A DNA stretch of 64,000 nt from Phlyctochytrium arcticum (taxonomy: Eukaryota > Chytridiomycota > Chytridiomycetes > Chytridiales > Chytridiaceae). The translations under genes and the position numbers were made by a program. The stretch covers positions 682,001 to 746,000 of the forward strand of contig JAHLKI010000002.1 in NCBI GenBank assembly GCA_025602905.1. The letters are read 5' to 3'. The notes under the pieces are model-generated. The model saw only the letters and a program-made list of their open reading frames with translations. It had not been told where the DNA came from and made no database searches. Of this stretch, positions 6,595 through 14,355 are shown piece by piece; the stretch's first letter is position 1; every line of letters starts with the position of its first letter.

Positions 6595-6815
6595 TAATGC
6601 GCCCTGGCCCAGGCATTTTTCCAAAGGAAAAATGGATGGGCGCGGAATGATCCCGAGCGACAGCGAGGGCGAATGATTTTGCAAAGCAAAATCGAGTGCG
6701 AGCGACAGCGAGCAGGACGCCGAGCGAAGCGAGGCAATTCTTGGCCCAGACATTTTTTTCCAGAGTTCCGAGGAGCGAAGCGAGGGCGAGGGCAAGATGT
6801 CTGGGCGAGGAACGA
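6595..6815. repeat. Hairpin-rich repeat with GAGCGAAGCGAGG motifs
   Basis: Three inverted repeats are packed here: 9-bp arms around an AAA loop at 6614-6634, 8-bp arms GATTTTGC/GCAAAATC with an AAA loop at about 6673-6691, and 9-bp arms CCCAGACAT/ATGTCTGGG at 6745-6753 and 6797-6805. GAGCGAAGCGAGG-like motifs recur between them. It lies 3' of the aquaglyceroporin gene and left of the direct repeat at about 6911. It could be a MITE-like element or a structured 3' region. Confidence 0.6.
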
Positions 6816-6910
6816 TTTTATCCCATGCGGGGTTTCACACATGGTGCAACAAAGCATGCGGTTATAATCCTCGGATGGTTTTGCTGAATGAGGTGAGGGA
6901 TGGCTACGCT

Positions 6911-6992
6911 AAGTAATTTTCGCCATGTGACAATATATATTCCCACCTCTCATATCAAAATCATTCGTCAAACCACCAATCCAACTTGATTT
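6911..6992. repeat. Left copy of a dispersed direct repeat
   Basis: It shares AAGTAATTT, CGCCATGTGAC, TATTCCCACCTCTCA, AAATCATTCG, TCAAACCA and CAATCCAACTTG, in order, with 14181-14281. Small indels separate the blocks. The two copies bracket the RCC1-like and Fanzor genes. Confidence 0.8.
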
Positions 6993-7295
6993 ACAGAACA
7001 TAGCGCTGTGTGATGGCTTTCGGTGATCGGTTTCGTCTTCATCGTTGAAGGAAATTATGGATACTTCCTGGTCGAAAGAGGCCAAATTTCCACAGCCTAC
7101 CGAGAAAGGGTCAGGTCCTTGGGCCCATCTTAACGCACAGCGAAAGAATAGAATATCGATACAGCATACTCGATCGAGAGTCAAGGGGTATATATACATG
7201 GTGCTCAAGATGTGAGGGTAATGGCACAGTCATGCACTTCAAGTCGGAGATGTTGGAGAACAAGATCGATCTGTCGAAGCAAGCATAATCGCGGC

Positions 7296-8429
7296 ATGCC
7301 TCTGTATGCGTTCGGGTCAAACTCTTATGGGCAGCTGGGGACCGGGAACAAGGAGGATGGTCATAAACCAAGTCAAAGCATCTTGCCACAATCTTTCCTG
7401 GATTCGACACCGCGCGTTATGACTGGGGGAGCCAATCACTCGCTCATTGTCTCTGCGGATGGGATGGTTTTCACCTGTGGCCGCAACGATAAAGGACAAC
7501 TGGGCCTTGAAGGTCCTGCCCGCGAGTCTTTCTGTGAAGTTGTGCTGGACTCGAGCGTTCCGAGAGAAGCTTGCGAAGCAAGCTGTGGGTGGGATCATTC
7601 ACTCGTTACAGACAGCGACGGCAAAGTGTTTGGCTTTGGATCCAACGAATTCGGGCAGCTTGGGCTCGGAATGAGCAAATATGTTATTTTTAATCGCCCT
7701 CATACAGTATCTGTACCGGGCCCGGTCAGAAAGTGTGCTGCTGGTCTGCGACACTCTGTTTTGCTGTTGAACGATGGATCAGTTTGGGGAATGGGATTGG
7801 AACGCTTTGGCCAGCTTGGGTTTGGGTCAGACGATGGAGTGAGATCTACATAATATAAACCGCTTCGGCTGCCTTTACCACCATGTACAGATATTGCCGC
7901 TGGAGAGCATCATACACTTGGCCTTACGAGATCAGGGACTATCATTGGGATGGGCCGCAACCGCCACGGACCGCTCCTCCCGGCCACACCTAGCAAGGAG
8001 GTACGGGTGCCCGTCGAGGTCCGCAGTGCGGATGAGCAGCAAGTTTTATGGCAGATAGCATGCGGTTGGAGCTTCTCTGTCTGTATCAGCGTCAATGGCA
8101 AACTGGAAATGTGGGGCCGGGACGATCACCATCAGACGGCTGGCTCAAGTCTCTCAGAGGTGCATGAGGTCTCTTGTGGCAGCGAGCATGTTCTCTGTCT
8201 AACGACTGCCAGCGCTTGCCTTGCCTGGGGCTGGAACGAGCATGGCAACTGTGGAGTGGGCCACTGCAACGATGTTACGAGTCCACAAACGGTTGTGTCT
8301 TCAGGCGTAACCAAGATTGGATGCGGATACGGACATTCACTTTTATACATTTCACCACCACCAATAATAGACAAGGCGGGAGTACACAACATGAGTTGCA
8401 AGTTTCAATTGGTTTATCATTATTATTAG
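7296..8429 (+). CDS. RCC1-repeat (beta-propeller) protein, possibly broken
   Basis: The protein shows successive RCC1 blades: AFGSNSYGQLG, GGANHSLIVSADG, TCGRNDKGQLG, CGWDHSLVTDSDG, GFGSNEFGQLG, AAGLRHSVLLLNDG, then AAGEHHTLGLTRSG, CGWSFSVCISVNG and CGYGHSLLYIS. About seven blades make one propeller, as in SERGEF/ATS1-type proteins; which small GTPase or other partner it binds cannot be seen. The start is the ATG at 7296, directly before the first blade. An in-frame TAA at 7851-7853 interrupts it, although the same frame continues with blade-like sequence on both sides. Either an intron removes the stop (GTGAGA at 7839 to AG at 7907 is in phase but would delete conserved residues) or the gene carries a nonsense mutation. 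Confidence 0.7.
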
Positions 8430-9273
8430 GAAAGACAATATGATGGAAATGTGTGATGGAAAATTGCCAAGTCATTTCACCGACCATCCAAAGGAGCGGG
8501 CCGACTCCAGCTTGGCACCCGTTTTCCAGCACTGGGTTGATTCTGCTTATCCCGGACGACACGCCTGCATTATCGCATGACTATCCTTTGCCGAAGCAAA
8601 AGTCACCTTGCGGACGGTGCTTTTTAAAGGGTAAGGTTTCTTCCTTATCAGAAAAGAAGAAAAGAAGCAGCAGAGGCGGGGGAACCTTTTTTTTTTGAAA
8701 CCTGACGTTCCTTAACCGAAAAAATGAATTTCACGTTGGGAAAATTTCAAGGACCCCGCCCATACAAGCTGAGGCACACCGGCAGTATGCAATAAAGCTT
8801 TCGAATTTTGTTGAAGTTCCAACGTAGGTTCCATGATCCAAGAAATCTTTGGAATTCACCAGAAGGGCGTGAGTAGATTAAGTGAGGAATCCCGGGAATA
8901 CCCGTAAAATCTTTGATTCTTTAAAAACGCTATATGTACCTGGATATGAAGCATCTGGGGGTTAAAAGATTTGTATGATCTCTAACCATTATATATATCT
9001 TGACATGTGCAAAATGGCGAACAAGGAACTATCATGATGTGCCAAAGTTAAAAAGATGCATGCAAATACCTGCTGAATAACGAGCAAAACCTTTTTAGTT
9101 CACGAAAGTTCACAGATTGATCTAAGCGTTGGAATTCATAACATACGCTGTATTTTGCCGTATCATTTCCCATTCTCTGACCAAAAAAATAAACCCAGAG
9201 CACCTCACTCGCGAAGACAGCACGCGTGCGCGTTTGGCAAGCCCCCCGTTTCCCATCGCTCTCGACTCCTCTT
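8430..9273. other. Intergenic between the RCC1-like gene and the Fanzor promoter
   Basis: No protein-like ORF. It presumably holds the 3' UTR of the RCC1-like gene and, if the Fanzor gene belongs to a mobile element, its left end. I found no terminal inverted repeat by eye. Confidence 0.5.
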
Positions 9274-9274
9274 G

Positions 9275-9302
9275 GAAACTTCCCGAACGTTCCCCGACGT
9301 TC
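9275..9302 (+). promoter_or_regulatory. Heat-shock element array
   Basis: Six alternating GAA/TTC pentamer cores sit at exact 5-bp spacing: GAA 9275, TTC 9280, GAA 9285, TTC 9290, a GA-containing degenerate unit at 9295 and TTC 9300. This is the classical binding site for trimeric HSF. It lies about 90 bp upstream of a TATA box and about 230 bp upstream of the proposed Fanzor start. Confidence 0.75.
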
Positions 9303-9305
9303 CAG

Positions 9306-9310
9306 CCAAT
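9306..9310 (+). promoter_or_regulatory. CCAAT box
   Basis: CCAAT follows the heat-shock array directly and lies about 80 bp upstream of the TATA box, the usual place for an NF-Y/HAP-bound element. Confidence 0.45.
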
Positions 9311-9390
9311 CAAACAAGGCCGCGAGCAGATGGCGTGCGATGAATTTTTTTTTTCCGAATAGCGACGTCCCGCGCCTCAGCGCTTGGCGG

Positions 9391-9397
9391 TATAAAA
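9391..9397 (+). promoter_or_regulatory. TATA box of the Fanzor gene
   Basis: TATAAAA in a GC-rich context, 135-141 bp upstream of the first in-frame ATG (9532). Three upstream ATGs in other frames (9428, 9485 and 9499) follow it, so the leader would carry short uORFs. Confidence 0.6.
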
Positions 9398-9531
9398 AGA
9401 CCTCTGTTGAGCCGCCCGCCCCAGAACATGCCGACATCCACGACATCCACGACATTCACGACAACCACCCACTGAAAAACAGAAATGCAGTGTCCTCATG
9501 GGAAACCGTGGGGGGCACTGTTTCGTCGCGG

Positions 9532-12500
9532 ATGGCGCTCGCCAATTCAATCATAGCACCACGGGGGGGGGGGGCCGCAACGCCAACGGGAGGCACCTCC
9601 TGCTCGACTTCGTCTGGTAAGGGGGTGTGGATGGTGGTCTATGCATGTTAAACACACGACTCACCTGCAATTTCCTTCTCATTCTCAGAGCCAGGTCCAT
9701 CATTCAATCCCAAGAATGCCAAACGTATCCCACGCCCTTCTCAGCCAGGCAGAAAGTCCAAACGCCCTCGACCTCGCACACCTTCTCCACGCACACCCTC
9801 TCCACCTCCTTCGGCGTCGTCTCGACCTCAAGAACCGTTGTTGTCCTCGTCTCCAATGCGAGAAAGAAGGAGAAGCTATCCAAGGACGCAGTAAGTTCAA
9901 CAAACCCAGACGGAAACGAGAGTCACTCACAACTAAACCGTTACTCCGTCATTACTAGGAAGACAAAAGAACCCTTGCGATTGCCACTTGCTCGACTCTA
10001 CCATTCAAAATATGACCGTCCATTACCGCTCTAACCAGAGGGAGTGTTTGCTGCACGGCAAGTCGTTGGCTGAACGAAAGGAGCTCAAACGCCAGATCAC
10101 AAGAATCAAGACCGGCGAGCCTGTACGATCGTCTACAGGCAGCGCCCATTCCAAGTCGTCGACTTCTCGCCCACTTCCAGGAGGTTAACCGACTCTTTCA
10201 GCTCCCTCACAACCATTGGATTTAAGCGTCACAGAGCGACCGCCGACAGTGGTAAACGAGACGGATCAGGTAGACGAGGAGCAGGAGGTTCAGGAAGACC
10301 AAATGGGGGAGAATGAGGAGCAGCAGGAACAGGAGGAATCAAACGCAAAGTCGAAATTCAGCGTGAAGTTGGGACTCACAAAAACAGTCAAGTCGGATGC
10401 AATGGGCGAACGCATCGTGGACGCCGTTCTGAGGTGAGATTTTCTTTGGAGTCTGTGGAGGATTGCCCGAACTTCTGCTCAATTGTGACGTCTGAATAGG
10501 TTCAACGAAATCACCTACCATGGTCTCAAACTACTCTCCGTATACACCATCATGTTGGGGAAGACGCTTCCACCCTTCGACCGTCCGGATGGGAAAAGAC
10601 TCATTCGACAGTGTTTCTACGCTGTTTCGGTGACGACGAGACAAACCGTACCGGCGACACCGGTGGATCCTCGCCTCCAAAAGAGCCTTCGATGAGTACC
10701 GAAAACAGCTTCCCGAACAGGATCGTAAATGGCCTTCCAGAGAAGCGTTGAATCAGTCTTTGACCTACCACACCACCACCGTCATGGCTGACATTCGTCG
10801 TCACATCGTCGTTCACCTGGTGAGCCGAATCACAAAATACGCCAGGATCAAGCTCACCCACATTCTTGGATCATCCCCTTCCAACGTCTCCTTGGATCCC
10901 CGCGACGTAAAGGAGCTTGCTCAGCGATTAACCAAGCGCCTTGTCTACAATGAGAAGCAAGCCTGGGTAATCGCCAAAAACAAGAATGAAGACCCTCCCC
11001 CAATTCCTGCTTGGGCGAGACCTTCTGATGTGTACGACATTCTCAGGCTTCCAACGAGCCCCCAACGCAAGTCTGATCAACACCTCTTCAGCCTTCTGTC
11101 CACTCACAAGGAACTTGCGACTGCTGTTTCCCAGGTCTTCGACTCTGTGGTCCATCGCGTCGAAGGCAGCGGTGGTCTTCCGATTTGCTCCAGCAAAGCC
11201 CGCGACTAATATAACGAAACGGGAACAGAAAACCCATGGCTGAAACGTTACTATCCCCTGCATCGTTTCCTTCTGCGAGAAATGGAAGAACTGAACGGGA
11301 CAGTAGACAACAACATTGGCGGCGATGGTTCAGAGGAACCCATACGGATTGCGGAATCCGCTCCTCGCATTCATCACGCTTGGGCTCGGCGGAAGGTGAC
11401 AAAAATATGTGGACGACACCCCGAAGTCTTCGTTTCCCGCCGTTCAAGACGGCGCGCCACAATGGCGTTGTTGAAGGCAGTGACCAACCGGCTGACCTTG
11501 GAAGCCAACAGTGAAGGTAAAGTATTGCGAATCGCCATTATGAAGTGCGTTCGGTAGGACTCATCAGAATCAAACAGGCTCGAGTCGAGGGAATAGAAGC
11601 TGCAAACGCAGAGGAATATTGCCTGAATCCATCATGACGGAGGTAAAGACAAAGGCAGCAAAAACAATCCGAAAACTGGAAGGGAGCTTTTGCTTGAAAG
11701 GGACCGGAAAGCCCACTGGCCAGGACCGTTCCCGCCTGTGGACGTTATTGCCACAACCTTCTCTTCGCCGCCGCCACATGCTCTTGGACACCACAACCCT
11801 GGTAGAACTCTACAAAATTATCGACTGTCGACGGGCCCTCGAATACGAAACGGCCAGACTAGCCGCCCGGAAAAAAATTTGGGCTCAAGTTTTTCATCTC
11901 GAACGTGTGAAGGGCGTGGACTTTTCTGAAAGGTAATTGTTCGCCGTTTCTGTGGAAGTGTTGTTGGCCGATACTGATAGAGTTTACGTGCAGACCATTG
12001 CAAGGGAAGAGACGCGAGTTCACGAATATCATCAGCACCGACGGGGAGGCCTGTTCCTTTATTTGTCGTCGACCGAAGGCTGGAGCAACTGGAAAAGCGG
12101 ATCCTCCATCCCCAAGATCGGTTTGTTTTGACGAAGAAGTGGTTTTCCGATCTATCGACCCGGGTGAGTCGGATGTTATTTCCGGATATATTCCGAGAAT
12201 GACCTTTGACCCGAACGACCGTCACCGTCTGTCACCATCTCAACCGGATATCGACCAACAACGGATGCCTGCCACTAGTTCGCCGCACCAACAACGGAAG
12301 GAAAAGGCAAAAATGGGCAAGGAAACAACGTTTGGCATGTCCGGAAAGGAGTGGCGGCACCTGGCCGGACACAACTTCACAGACCAGTGGCGAGACGCCT
12401 GGAAGAAGGAGGTTGCCGCCGTGGCGGGTGTATAAATTTCCACACTTACTTCCAGTATCACCACACCCAAGACGGCCATCCTTCAAACGAATCTCACACA

Positions 12501-13230
12501 TCTGCAAACAACGTTTCGTTCCGTCGACTTTTTGACCACGTACCATTCGAAAGAGCACCGCTGGAATTTTTTTAAATACCGGCAATCCCAAAAGGCGTTG
12601 AGCGAAGTTGTCAGACGGGTTAAAGGCGATGACTTACAAAGGGACAAATCCAGGGTTATTGTTGCGTTTGGCAATGGCAAATTTGGTGGTCGGAAAGGAA
12701 GGGAAGTAGACGAGCTCCCCTGAAGAAAATCAAAAATCATCTTTCCACATATGTCACTTTGGTGCTGATAGATGAATATCGTACCTCGCGAGCATGTTCA
12801 GGCTGTTTGAAGGAAGAATGCTGGCAGGATGACGAGAGCCAGACACCACCGCCTGTACCAAGTGTGACCGATGATCCAGATGATGTTGAAGAGCTGAGAT
12901 GGGAAGCCCTCGATGAAGACGACGACAACAATACAGCCAAGGATGACAAGCAGAAAGAATGGTAAGTCGGAAACACATGTCGCAAGGATTCCCAATTCTT
13001 CGACTGAAACACATCACAACAGGGACGTCGAACCGATGTATCGATATATTTACAAAGGGAGCCGTGAAGCGATCTATGCCGTACGACATTGCCAAAAATG
13101 CTACACGACATGGAACCGAGACACCAACGCCGCCCGAAACATTGCTTTTCTCTTCTGGTACCAAAGGCGATTCGGCGTGGGGAAGCGACCATTCCCCCTG
13201 CGTCGATCATCACCCCTTGTAACAAGCTGA
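9532..13230 (+). pseudogene. Fanzor (TnpB-like RNA-guided nuclease), one frame break
   Basis: Eukaryotic relative of IS605/IS607 TnpB; characterised Fanzors cut DNA guided by an omega-type RNA. Proposed exons: 9532-9616, 9689-9890, 9963-10183, 10235-10433, 10500-10610, 10684-11171, 11229-11516, 11578-11932, 11994-12386, 12456-12961, 13023-13230; all introns are GT-AG, 51-73 nt and phase-compatible. The N-terminus is Pro/Ser/Arg-rich, then an acidic Gln/Glu segment. Recognisable motifs: TLLPQPS (about 11745), STDG (about 12030), RuvC-I Asp in IDPG (12157-12159), AFGNGKF (about 12665), DEYRTS (Glu at 12774-12776, probably the displaced catalytic Glu of Fanzors), CSGC and CQKC zinc ligands, and RuvC-III NRDTNAARNI (Asp 13120-13122). 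The exons total 3056 nt; the frame breaks at a C4 run (12717-12720), where one extra base would give about 1018 residues. As read, the protein stops before the DEYRTS, zinc and RuvC-III parts, so this copy is inactive or the base is an assembly error. Confidence 0.85.
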
Positions 13231-13284
13231 CTGCGCATTCCCTTGTTAGTTTCAAGACGCGTCGCGCGACGCGTGCTGCGCAGT
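13230..13284 (+). ncRNA. Candidate guide-RNA 3' structure after the Fanzor ORF
   Basis: ACTGCGCA (13230-13237) pairs perfectly with TGCGCAGT (13277-13284). The loop contains an 18-bp perfect palindrome (13257-13274, ACGCGTCGC and its complement). The outer stem begins at the last base of the Fanzor stop codon. In TnpB and characterised Fanzor loci the guide RNA derives from the 3' end of the gene and its flank, so this is the natural place for it. The RNA itself is an inference. Confidence 0.45.
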
Positions 13285-13925
13285 GTCTGCCGTGTCTTTC
13301 CTTCATTTTACAAGTATATAGCCTACGGTAGTTTTCCCCTCCCCCGTAGCTTAACCGACAACCCCCACAGAATAGTACTAGTCAACTGTACTTTACACTG
13401 AACAAAGTTATACTTCACCAATGGGACATCGTCCCTGCTAATCCTGTTATACCCCTACTAGCTGGGATTGCCACGTGACGGCATCACACATTACTTACGG
13501 TAAGACGTTCGTTGTTTTGTCGCCGTTTGCTTTTACTGATCGTGTCTTCGATCCCACCAAATCTTTTGAACCTCTAACCGCTCACCCTGAAACCGTCATT
13601 TGTACATAAATCCTGTATGCCGTTTAATAGTAACAGACTCGAAAACGATTGCTACTTTTTGTTTGTCAAAACCGTCGCATAAGGACCCTAAGTAGATTGT
13701 CAGACAAGATAAAATCAGGCCTATAGTCATTCCGTCTCCCTCCGACTGCGACGAGCCTGCAAGAACGACCATCCTGCATTATACATCCCTGCATCATCCG
13801 TCCTCTGCTGCTGCTAGGCTGACTTGCAAAACCTCCGATTGGGGGCAGAAACGCGTCGAGTCACTTGCAAATAACGCGTCGTTACGGGTTGGCCGGGCAG
13901 ACTCGGGTGAGACTCGGACCCTCAA
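13285..13925. other. Region right of the Fanzor gene
   Basis: No ORF looks protein-like. It should contain the element's right end if there is one. I saw no terminal inverted repeat matching the region left of 9275. Confidence 0.45.
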
Positions 13926-14020: not shown

Positions 14021-14182
14021 ATGCTGATGACAACAGGCTGTCGACTGGCCGCCCGTAGCCGGACAATGGCGGCATCACACACGCTGGGTCTAGCCAAGAT
14101 GCAGCTTTACCTCGTTCCACGAGCAGCAACAGCTGGACTACATTCATCACGGCTTGTACGCAGCCATGATGAGAAGAAGTAA
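14021..14182 (+). CDS. Orphan first exon with mitochondrial-type presequence
   Basis: ATG 14021 opens 53 codons rich in Arg, Ala, Ser, Leu and Thr with almost no acidic residues until the end (CRLAARSRTMAASHTLG, then RAATAGLHSSRLVRS), which is the composition of a mitochondrial targeting peptide. The frame ends at a TAA that overlaps a perfect donor (GTAAGT at about 14179). I see no matching downstream exon before ABD1. The right-hand direct repeat starts right at the donor. It is either a truncated host gene, its body displaced by rearrangement, or a genuine micro-protein. It is not recognised. Confidence 0.4.
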   Translation: MLMTTGCRLAARSRTMAASHTLGLAKMQLYLVPRAATAGLHSSRLVRSHDEKK

Positions 14183-14281
14183 GTAATTTCGCCATGTGAC
14201 CATGTGACAAATATTCCCACCTCTCACATCGAAATCATTCGACCCAAATGTCAAACCAAATCAAACCACAATCCAACTTGT
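14181..14281. repeat. Right copy of the dispersed direct repeat
   Basis: Counterpart of 6911-6992, with the same ordered blocks (CGCCATGTGAC, TATTCCCACCTCTCA, TCAAACCA, CAATCCAACTTG). It is longer by small insertions, among them a second CATGTGAC and an ACCCAAATG stretch. It lies immediately upstream of ABD1. Confidence 0.8.
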
Positions 14282-14355
14282 TTAAAAGGTTGTTTTGTAA
14301 CTTTTGTGACAGAAGCCTTGTTCTCAAAATTCGAATCACGAACATTAGCAAAATC

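Follow-up and report, generated by a model that had tools for sequence, protein, structure and literature searches.

The Fanzor Locus and Its Relatives in the Genome

The window, as we call the whole stretch of 64,000 nucleotides analysed here, corresponds to C2:682001-746000 in the genome of the chytrid Phlyctochytrium arcticum (31.5 Mb in 91 contigs). It carries an interrupted gene of the Fanzor family, followed here through its other copies, and an RCC1-repeat gene. The features, in window positions, are:

7000..13132, + strand: duplicated block, 98% identical on contig C13 (C13:390404-396516)
7152-8429: RCC1-repeat gene (PF00415), with an in-frame stop
9075..13495, + strand: remnant of the Fanzor1 element; 5' limit set only by the onset of similarity to the C56 copy, 3' limit by the terminus shared with other copies
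9485..9616, + strand: exon 1, start codon at 9485 as in other copies, one frame change inside
9617-9688, + strand: shared intron 1, GT-AG in the copies that cover it
9689..9890, + strand: exon 2, frame change near 9861
9891-9958, + strand: shared intron 2, GT-AG in the copies that cover it
9959..10433, + strand: exon 3, in-frame stop at 10186-10188
10434-10499, + strand: shared intron 3, GT-AG in the copies that cover it
10500..11516, + strand: exon 4, frame change within 10629-10693, in-frame stop at 11207-11209
11517-11577, + strand: shared intron 4, GT-AG, exactly absent from the C13:320k copy
11578..11932, + strand: exon 5, no inactivating lesion seen
11933-11993, + strand: shared intron 5, GT-AG, inside which the C7 copy begins
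11994..12961, + strand: exon 6, with RuvC-I DPG (12157-12165), glutamate (12774-12776) and first CxxC (12795-12806); in-frame stop at 12433-12435, frame change within 12644-12725
12962-13022, + strand: shared intron 6, GT-AG in the copies that cover it
13023..13217, + strand: exon 7 up to the LTR, with second CxxC (13090-13101) and RuvC-III RD (13117-13122)
13213..13217, no strand: left target duplication CCCCT, flanking the solo LTR
13218..13451, + strand (that of the query, there being no internal part to orient it): solo LTR of 234 bases in exon 7
13452..13456, no strand: right target duplication CCCCT, flanking the solo LTR
13452..13478, + strand: remainder of exon 7 past the LTR, with the C7 copy as reference; the family's own stop is at 13476-13478
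13484..13495, - strand: element 3' terminus, common to the C7 and C13:320k copies

A first-pass annotation of this DNA, made from the letters alone, had described 9532..13230 as a spliced Fanzor gene, suggested to be of the Fanzor1 group, quoting the stretches IDPG, CSGC/CQKC and NRDTNAARNI. The quoted stretches are present on the + strand: IDPG at 12154-12165, DEYRTSRACSGC at 12771-12806, CQKC at 13090-13101 and WNRDTNAARN at 13111-13140. Fanzors are described as separated from most TnpBs by DPG, a glutamate six residues before the first CxxC and an aspartate soon after the second (PMC10711439). The DPG of RuvC-I is present at 12157-12165 (also in the C28, C1, C7 and C6 pieces of the family), the catalytic glutamate is six residues ahead of the first CxxC within 12771-12806, and a second CxxC followed by RD completes the C4 zinc finger (PF07282). 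Bacterial TnpB shares the RuvC and the zinc ribbon (PF07282), whereas typical TnpB, according to the same source (PMC10711439), has a hydrophobic residue for the P of DPG and places the glutamate some 50 residues ahead of the zinc finger; the window family has DPG, the glutamate six residues before, and introns.

Profile searches pointed the same way. The Pfam TNB model PF07282 (cut-off 26.3 bits) gave 15 matches in this genome, 13 of them above the cut-off, among these the C7 copy (28.5 bits; 97% identical in DNA to the window locus), and the C-terminal pieces of the paralogues C28 (27.1 bits) and C1 (31.0 bits) also exceeded it. A check against this profile came out positive for the C7 copy and the paralogues, but the window exon 7 peptide alone scored 24.5 bits, slightly under the cut-off. 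A protein search with the C7 piece found 18 matching stretches in the genome, including the diverged paralogues C15 (64%), C6 (48%), C1 (37%) and C28 (35%). The C28 piece retrieved SpuFz1, the Spizellomyces Fanzor1 (8gkh), from the PDB with an E value of 5.1e-5, and a four-row profile of family pieces retrieved it at 4.8e-8, as the sole match up to E 1. The link to SpuFz1 runs via the paralogues, because the window family's own two pieces gave no PDB match, and none above cut-off in Pfam. The predicted structure of the C-terminal half (four rows) had a pLDDT of 31 and was set aside. Judged by DPG, the repositioned glutamate and the match to SpuFz1, the locus belongs to Fanzor and to the Fanzor1 group, as had been proposed. 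The fungal host is borne out too: the genome has six matches to PF08407 (chitin-synthase N-terminal) against none in 14 control genomes, which fits a fungus.

Some observations concern the relatives of the window family. A Cys/His-rich stretch that by eye resembles a small zinc-binding motif recurs N-terminally in the window family and in both the C1 and the C28 paralogue (window 9959-10130; L042 4216-4689, - strand; L043 2201-2827, + strand), the latter two being 50% identical over 44 residues. At another place (L001, C2:1678583-1681783; 1-1743, + strand) a single frame matches Copia-type RVT_2 (E 7.9e-35) and the TNB/OrfB zinc ribbon (E 1.9e-17), so that a retrotransposon pol frame continues into a Fanzor/TnpB C-terminus, which may be a chance insertion. 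Among IMG/VR viral contigs scanned with the C7 piece, two stretches fitted the pattern and neither was confirmed.

Copies of the Element and the Ancestral Gene

A DNA search with window 9300-13600 gave at least 46 matches (40 of 62 candidates were scored), ten of which come from the locus itself and from parts of four other copies. Three of these are 98% (C13:392k) and 97% (C56 and C7) identical to the window; C13:320k is 72-85% identical in its main blocks and 93% in a 40-base end piece. As they read in the assembly, all four are likewise truncated, interrupted or frame-broken. C13:392k breaks off at 13132 and carries two frame changes; C56, which ends at 11902, has an insert and one stop; C7 is without the 5' half and has one frame change; and C13:320k is split by a retrotransposon and has further breaks.

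The four share one reading frame and six introns, and the same six GT-AG introns are common to the window and to the other copies covering them. In this frame C56 reads open, apart from its single stop, between the start at 9485 and the break that C56 itself has in exon 5, and C13:392k has an open run of 899 residues spanning exon 2 to near 12643. The ancestral gene would have had seven exons and six short introns. Intron 11517-11577 is exactly absent from C13:320k; copies of this single mobile gene thus differ in whether they have it.

Lesions and Probable Loss of Constraint

Three in-frame stops and four frame changes interrupt the window copy (positions listed above), all missing from the two or three other copies covering each site; the stop at 10186 was judged on two copies because C13:320k aligns poorly there. 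The changes private to the window amount to 17 substitutions (9075-13217) and five length changes (9400-13217). Only three of the 17 substitutions are C to T, showing no clear bias of the kind left by RIP-type mutation.

These lesions are read from one assembly, and the gene might be intact in the organism, the stops and frame changes being assembly errors. Two of the four private frame changes are indeed one-base changes beside short runs. However, the three stops arise from substitutions, the other two frame changes are 4- and 5-base differences, an LTR with its target duplications is no sequencing error, and large events have broken the sister copies in this assembly as well. We consider such errors an improbable explanation, if the least improbable of the rivals.

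The distribution of differences over codon positions was examined in the six-intron frame. Between C13:392k and C13:320k, positions 1, 2 and 3 showed 94, 76 and 223 differences summed over 15 segments, a third-position excess in the old divergence between copies, such as would be left by a gene formerly under selection. Two short segments lack the excess (10629-10683, with 2/5/4; 11150-11229, with 0/1/0), and the disputed stretch 12644-12725 gave 6/0/12 between C7 and C13:320k. The window-private substitutions in codons fell 6/6/4, small numbers whose pattern matches what would be expected after constraint was lost. In 11150-11229 the window and C13:320k differ at one counted position in 80 bases, against 15-28% elsewhere, perhaps a gene-conversion tract.

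A Solo LTR Within Exon 7

The remaining matches of the DNA search, at least 36, cover only window 13212-13454, at 96-97%, two of them being the pair of LTRs within C13:320k. At the corresponding site C7 lacks an LTR. The insertion severs the last codons of the gene, whose own stop is beyond it, and since the solo LTR sits within the window Fanzor gene, the stop previously assigned at 13228-13230 is LTR sequence.

In C13:320k copies of this LTR flank an element whose open frame, of 1273 codons, matches models for reverse transcriptase, RNase H, integrase and chromodomain, that is, of the Ty3/Gypsy type:

L022 5037-8858, - strand: the chromodomain-bearing Ty3/Gypsy-type retrotransposon that sits within the Fanzor copy C13:320k, its 1273-codon frame unbroken

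One LTR family has struck two of the five compared Fanzor copies, those of the window and C13:320k.

Element Ends and a Possible 3' RNA

The element stops at one common position (13495) in the window, C7 and C13:320k, with different flanks in each, and the C15 relative has a similar element end. In C13:320k an exact inverted copy of the end, 13 bp long, lies at the 5' side (C13:320406). This 13-bp pattern occurs eight times in the genome, four of them at such ends; the reversed control occurs four times. We found neither a 5' terminal repeat nor the element's 5' terminus in the window, where the short matches at 7007-7015 and 8448-8458 seem fortuitous, and no target duplication was evident at the Fanzor element ends of the copies examined.

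The family stop codon is 17 bases before the 3' terminus, so that a guide scaffold like that described for SpuFz1 (PMC10432273) would overlap the coding end. Ghost loci in Spizellomyces (PMC10432273) offer a model in which the protein is dead and the 3' end still yields a guide RNA for an intact Fanzor1 acting in trans. The window copy has retained its terminus, and the C1 paralogue, 37% identical, has a conserved core that reads open with possible introns, one of them weak. Against this, the LTR is 44 bases from the terminus and would split the scaffold, and the three 3' ends that were folded are no more structured than shuffles (z of -0.37, -0.56 and -0.53). A present role of this kind would be quite unlikely for the window copy, and it is just as unlikely that the broken copies of the subfamily, the window included, serve as guide-RNA-only ghost loci used in trans in spite of a retrotransposon remnant beside the scaffold.

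The Ten-Intron Gene Model

The first-pass annotation had assembled eleven exons, separated by ten introns of 51-73 nt, into a single protein of about 1018 residues, giving no intron coordinates. We searched all GT-AG chains with introns of this size, up to 14 per chain, between the ATG at 9532 and the stop at 13228-13230, and no open chain with ten or fewer exists across 9532-13230. The minimum is eleven introns. The longest eleven-intron chain, of 1025 residues, retains one of the six shared introns (10434-10499) and excises 12661-12725, where part of the conserved FGNGKFGG stretch is encoded. Of 12 random sequences matched in dinucleotide composition, none could be opened with up to 14 introns; 9532-13230 therefore differs strongly from random sequence, as a gene broken recently would. 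The start at 9532 fares no better, since none of the three other copies spanning the site has an ATG there. Splicing as such stands, with real GT-AG introns, six of them common to the copies, but the ten introns do not, and the single long protein is interrupted by the three stops, the four frame changes and the solo LTR. An intact, spliced gene of about eleven exons encoding a working RNA-guided nuclease, which the catalytic and zinc residues, the six real introns and the failure to open random sequences might favour, is hardly credible and the least probable of the readings, as no chain of up to ten GT-AG introns of 51-73 nt is open, the best of eleven sacrifices conserved coding sequence along with five of the six shared introns, the disputed stretches are exonic in other copies (12644-12725, for example), the start is private to the window and the stop is within an LTR.

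Surroundings of the Locus

The duplicated block contains the RCC1-repeat gene and most of the Fanzor gene. The C13 copy of the RCC1-like gene has a frame-changing difference, and a third copy on C3, 87% identical, has neither the window stop nor the C13 frame difference. That the Fanzor gene is 'embedded between host genes' is also too simple, because its RCC1-like neighbour was duplicated with most of it on another contig and both RCC1 copies have a reading-frame lesion. Just left of the block, window 6911-6999 resembles by eye the start of an intron-like stretch (14178-14290) in the downstream gene, with a 14-base exact core, as if part of that gene had been copied across. Further left, 6604-6819 is a short repeat found many times over in the genome, with many of the matches falling in 6605-6757.

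A Probable Pseudogene of a Fanzor1 Mobile Element

With these alternatives weighed, the locus is very probably a pseudogene of a Fanzor1 mobile element, a genomic fossil and not a working nuclease. The ancestral gene, from what is known of the family, would have encoded a RuvC nuclease guided by RNA from the 3' end of its own element. On this reading copies spread in P. arcticum, and the five compared here have decayed. The window copy, sharing a duplicated block with the RCC1-like gene, has gained three stops, four frame changes and an LTR, and with these it should not make a full nuclease. Its place in the family, the copies, the lesions, the LTR and the 3' terminus are observed, whereas we infer both the past RNA-guided cutting and the loss of function at this locus. 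What had been taken for a usable nuclease is a mobile-element copy broken several times over.

The closest known system is SPu-1/SpuFz1 of Spizellomyces punctatus. It is alike in the RuvC/TNB half by profile (8gkh, E 4.8e-8), in DPG and the repositioned glutamate, and, as described in PMC3627910 and PMC10432273, in partial copies and Ty3 insertions among its loci, and it may also be alike in terminal inverted repeats. SpuFz1 differs in its single open frame of 633 residues and its 33-bp repeats, whereas the window family is split by six introns, extends further at the N-terminus and shows a 13-bp repeat on one copy, and the window copy is broken. The Fanzor1 elements of Mucorales (Rhizopus, Phycomyces, Mucor) are likewise fungal, in elements described without a transposase gene, but resemble MuDR with 9-bp target duplications (PMC3627910), of which none are evident in the window family. 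Fungal Fanzor1 elements have already been published (PMC3627910), as have ghost loci, partial copies and cases of Ty3 inserting into a Fanzor locus (PMC10432273). The window locus is a new yet ordinary Fanzor1 pseudogene.

The genome holds varied Fanzor loci, as the TNB matches indicate, and at least one may be intact. Where degraded copies abound, a long Fanzor protein can be assembled by bridging stops and frame changes with assumed introns. Surveys built on such bridged gene models would over-count working nucleases, and the locus matters chiefly as a correction.
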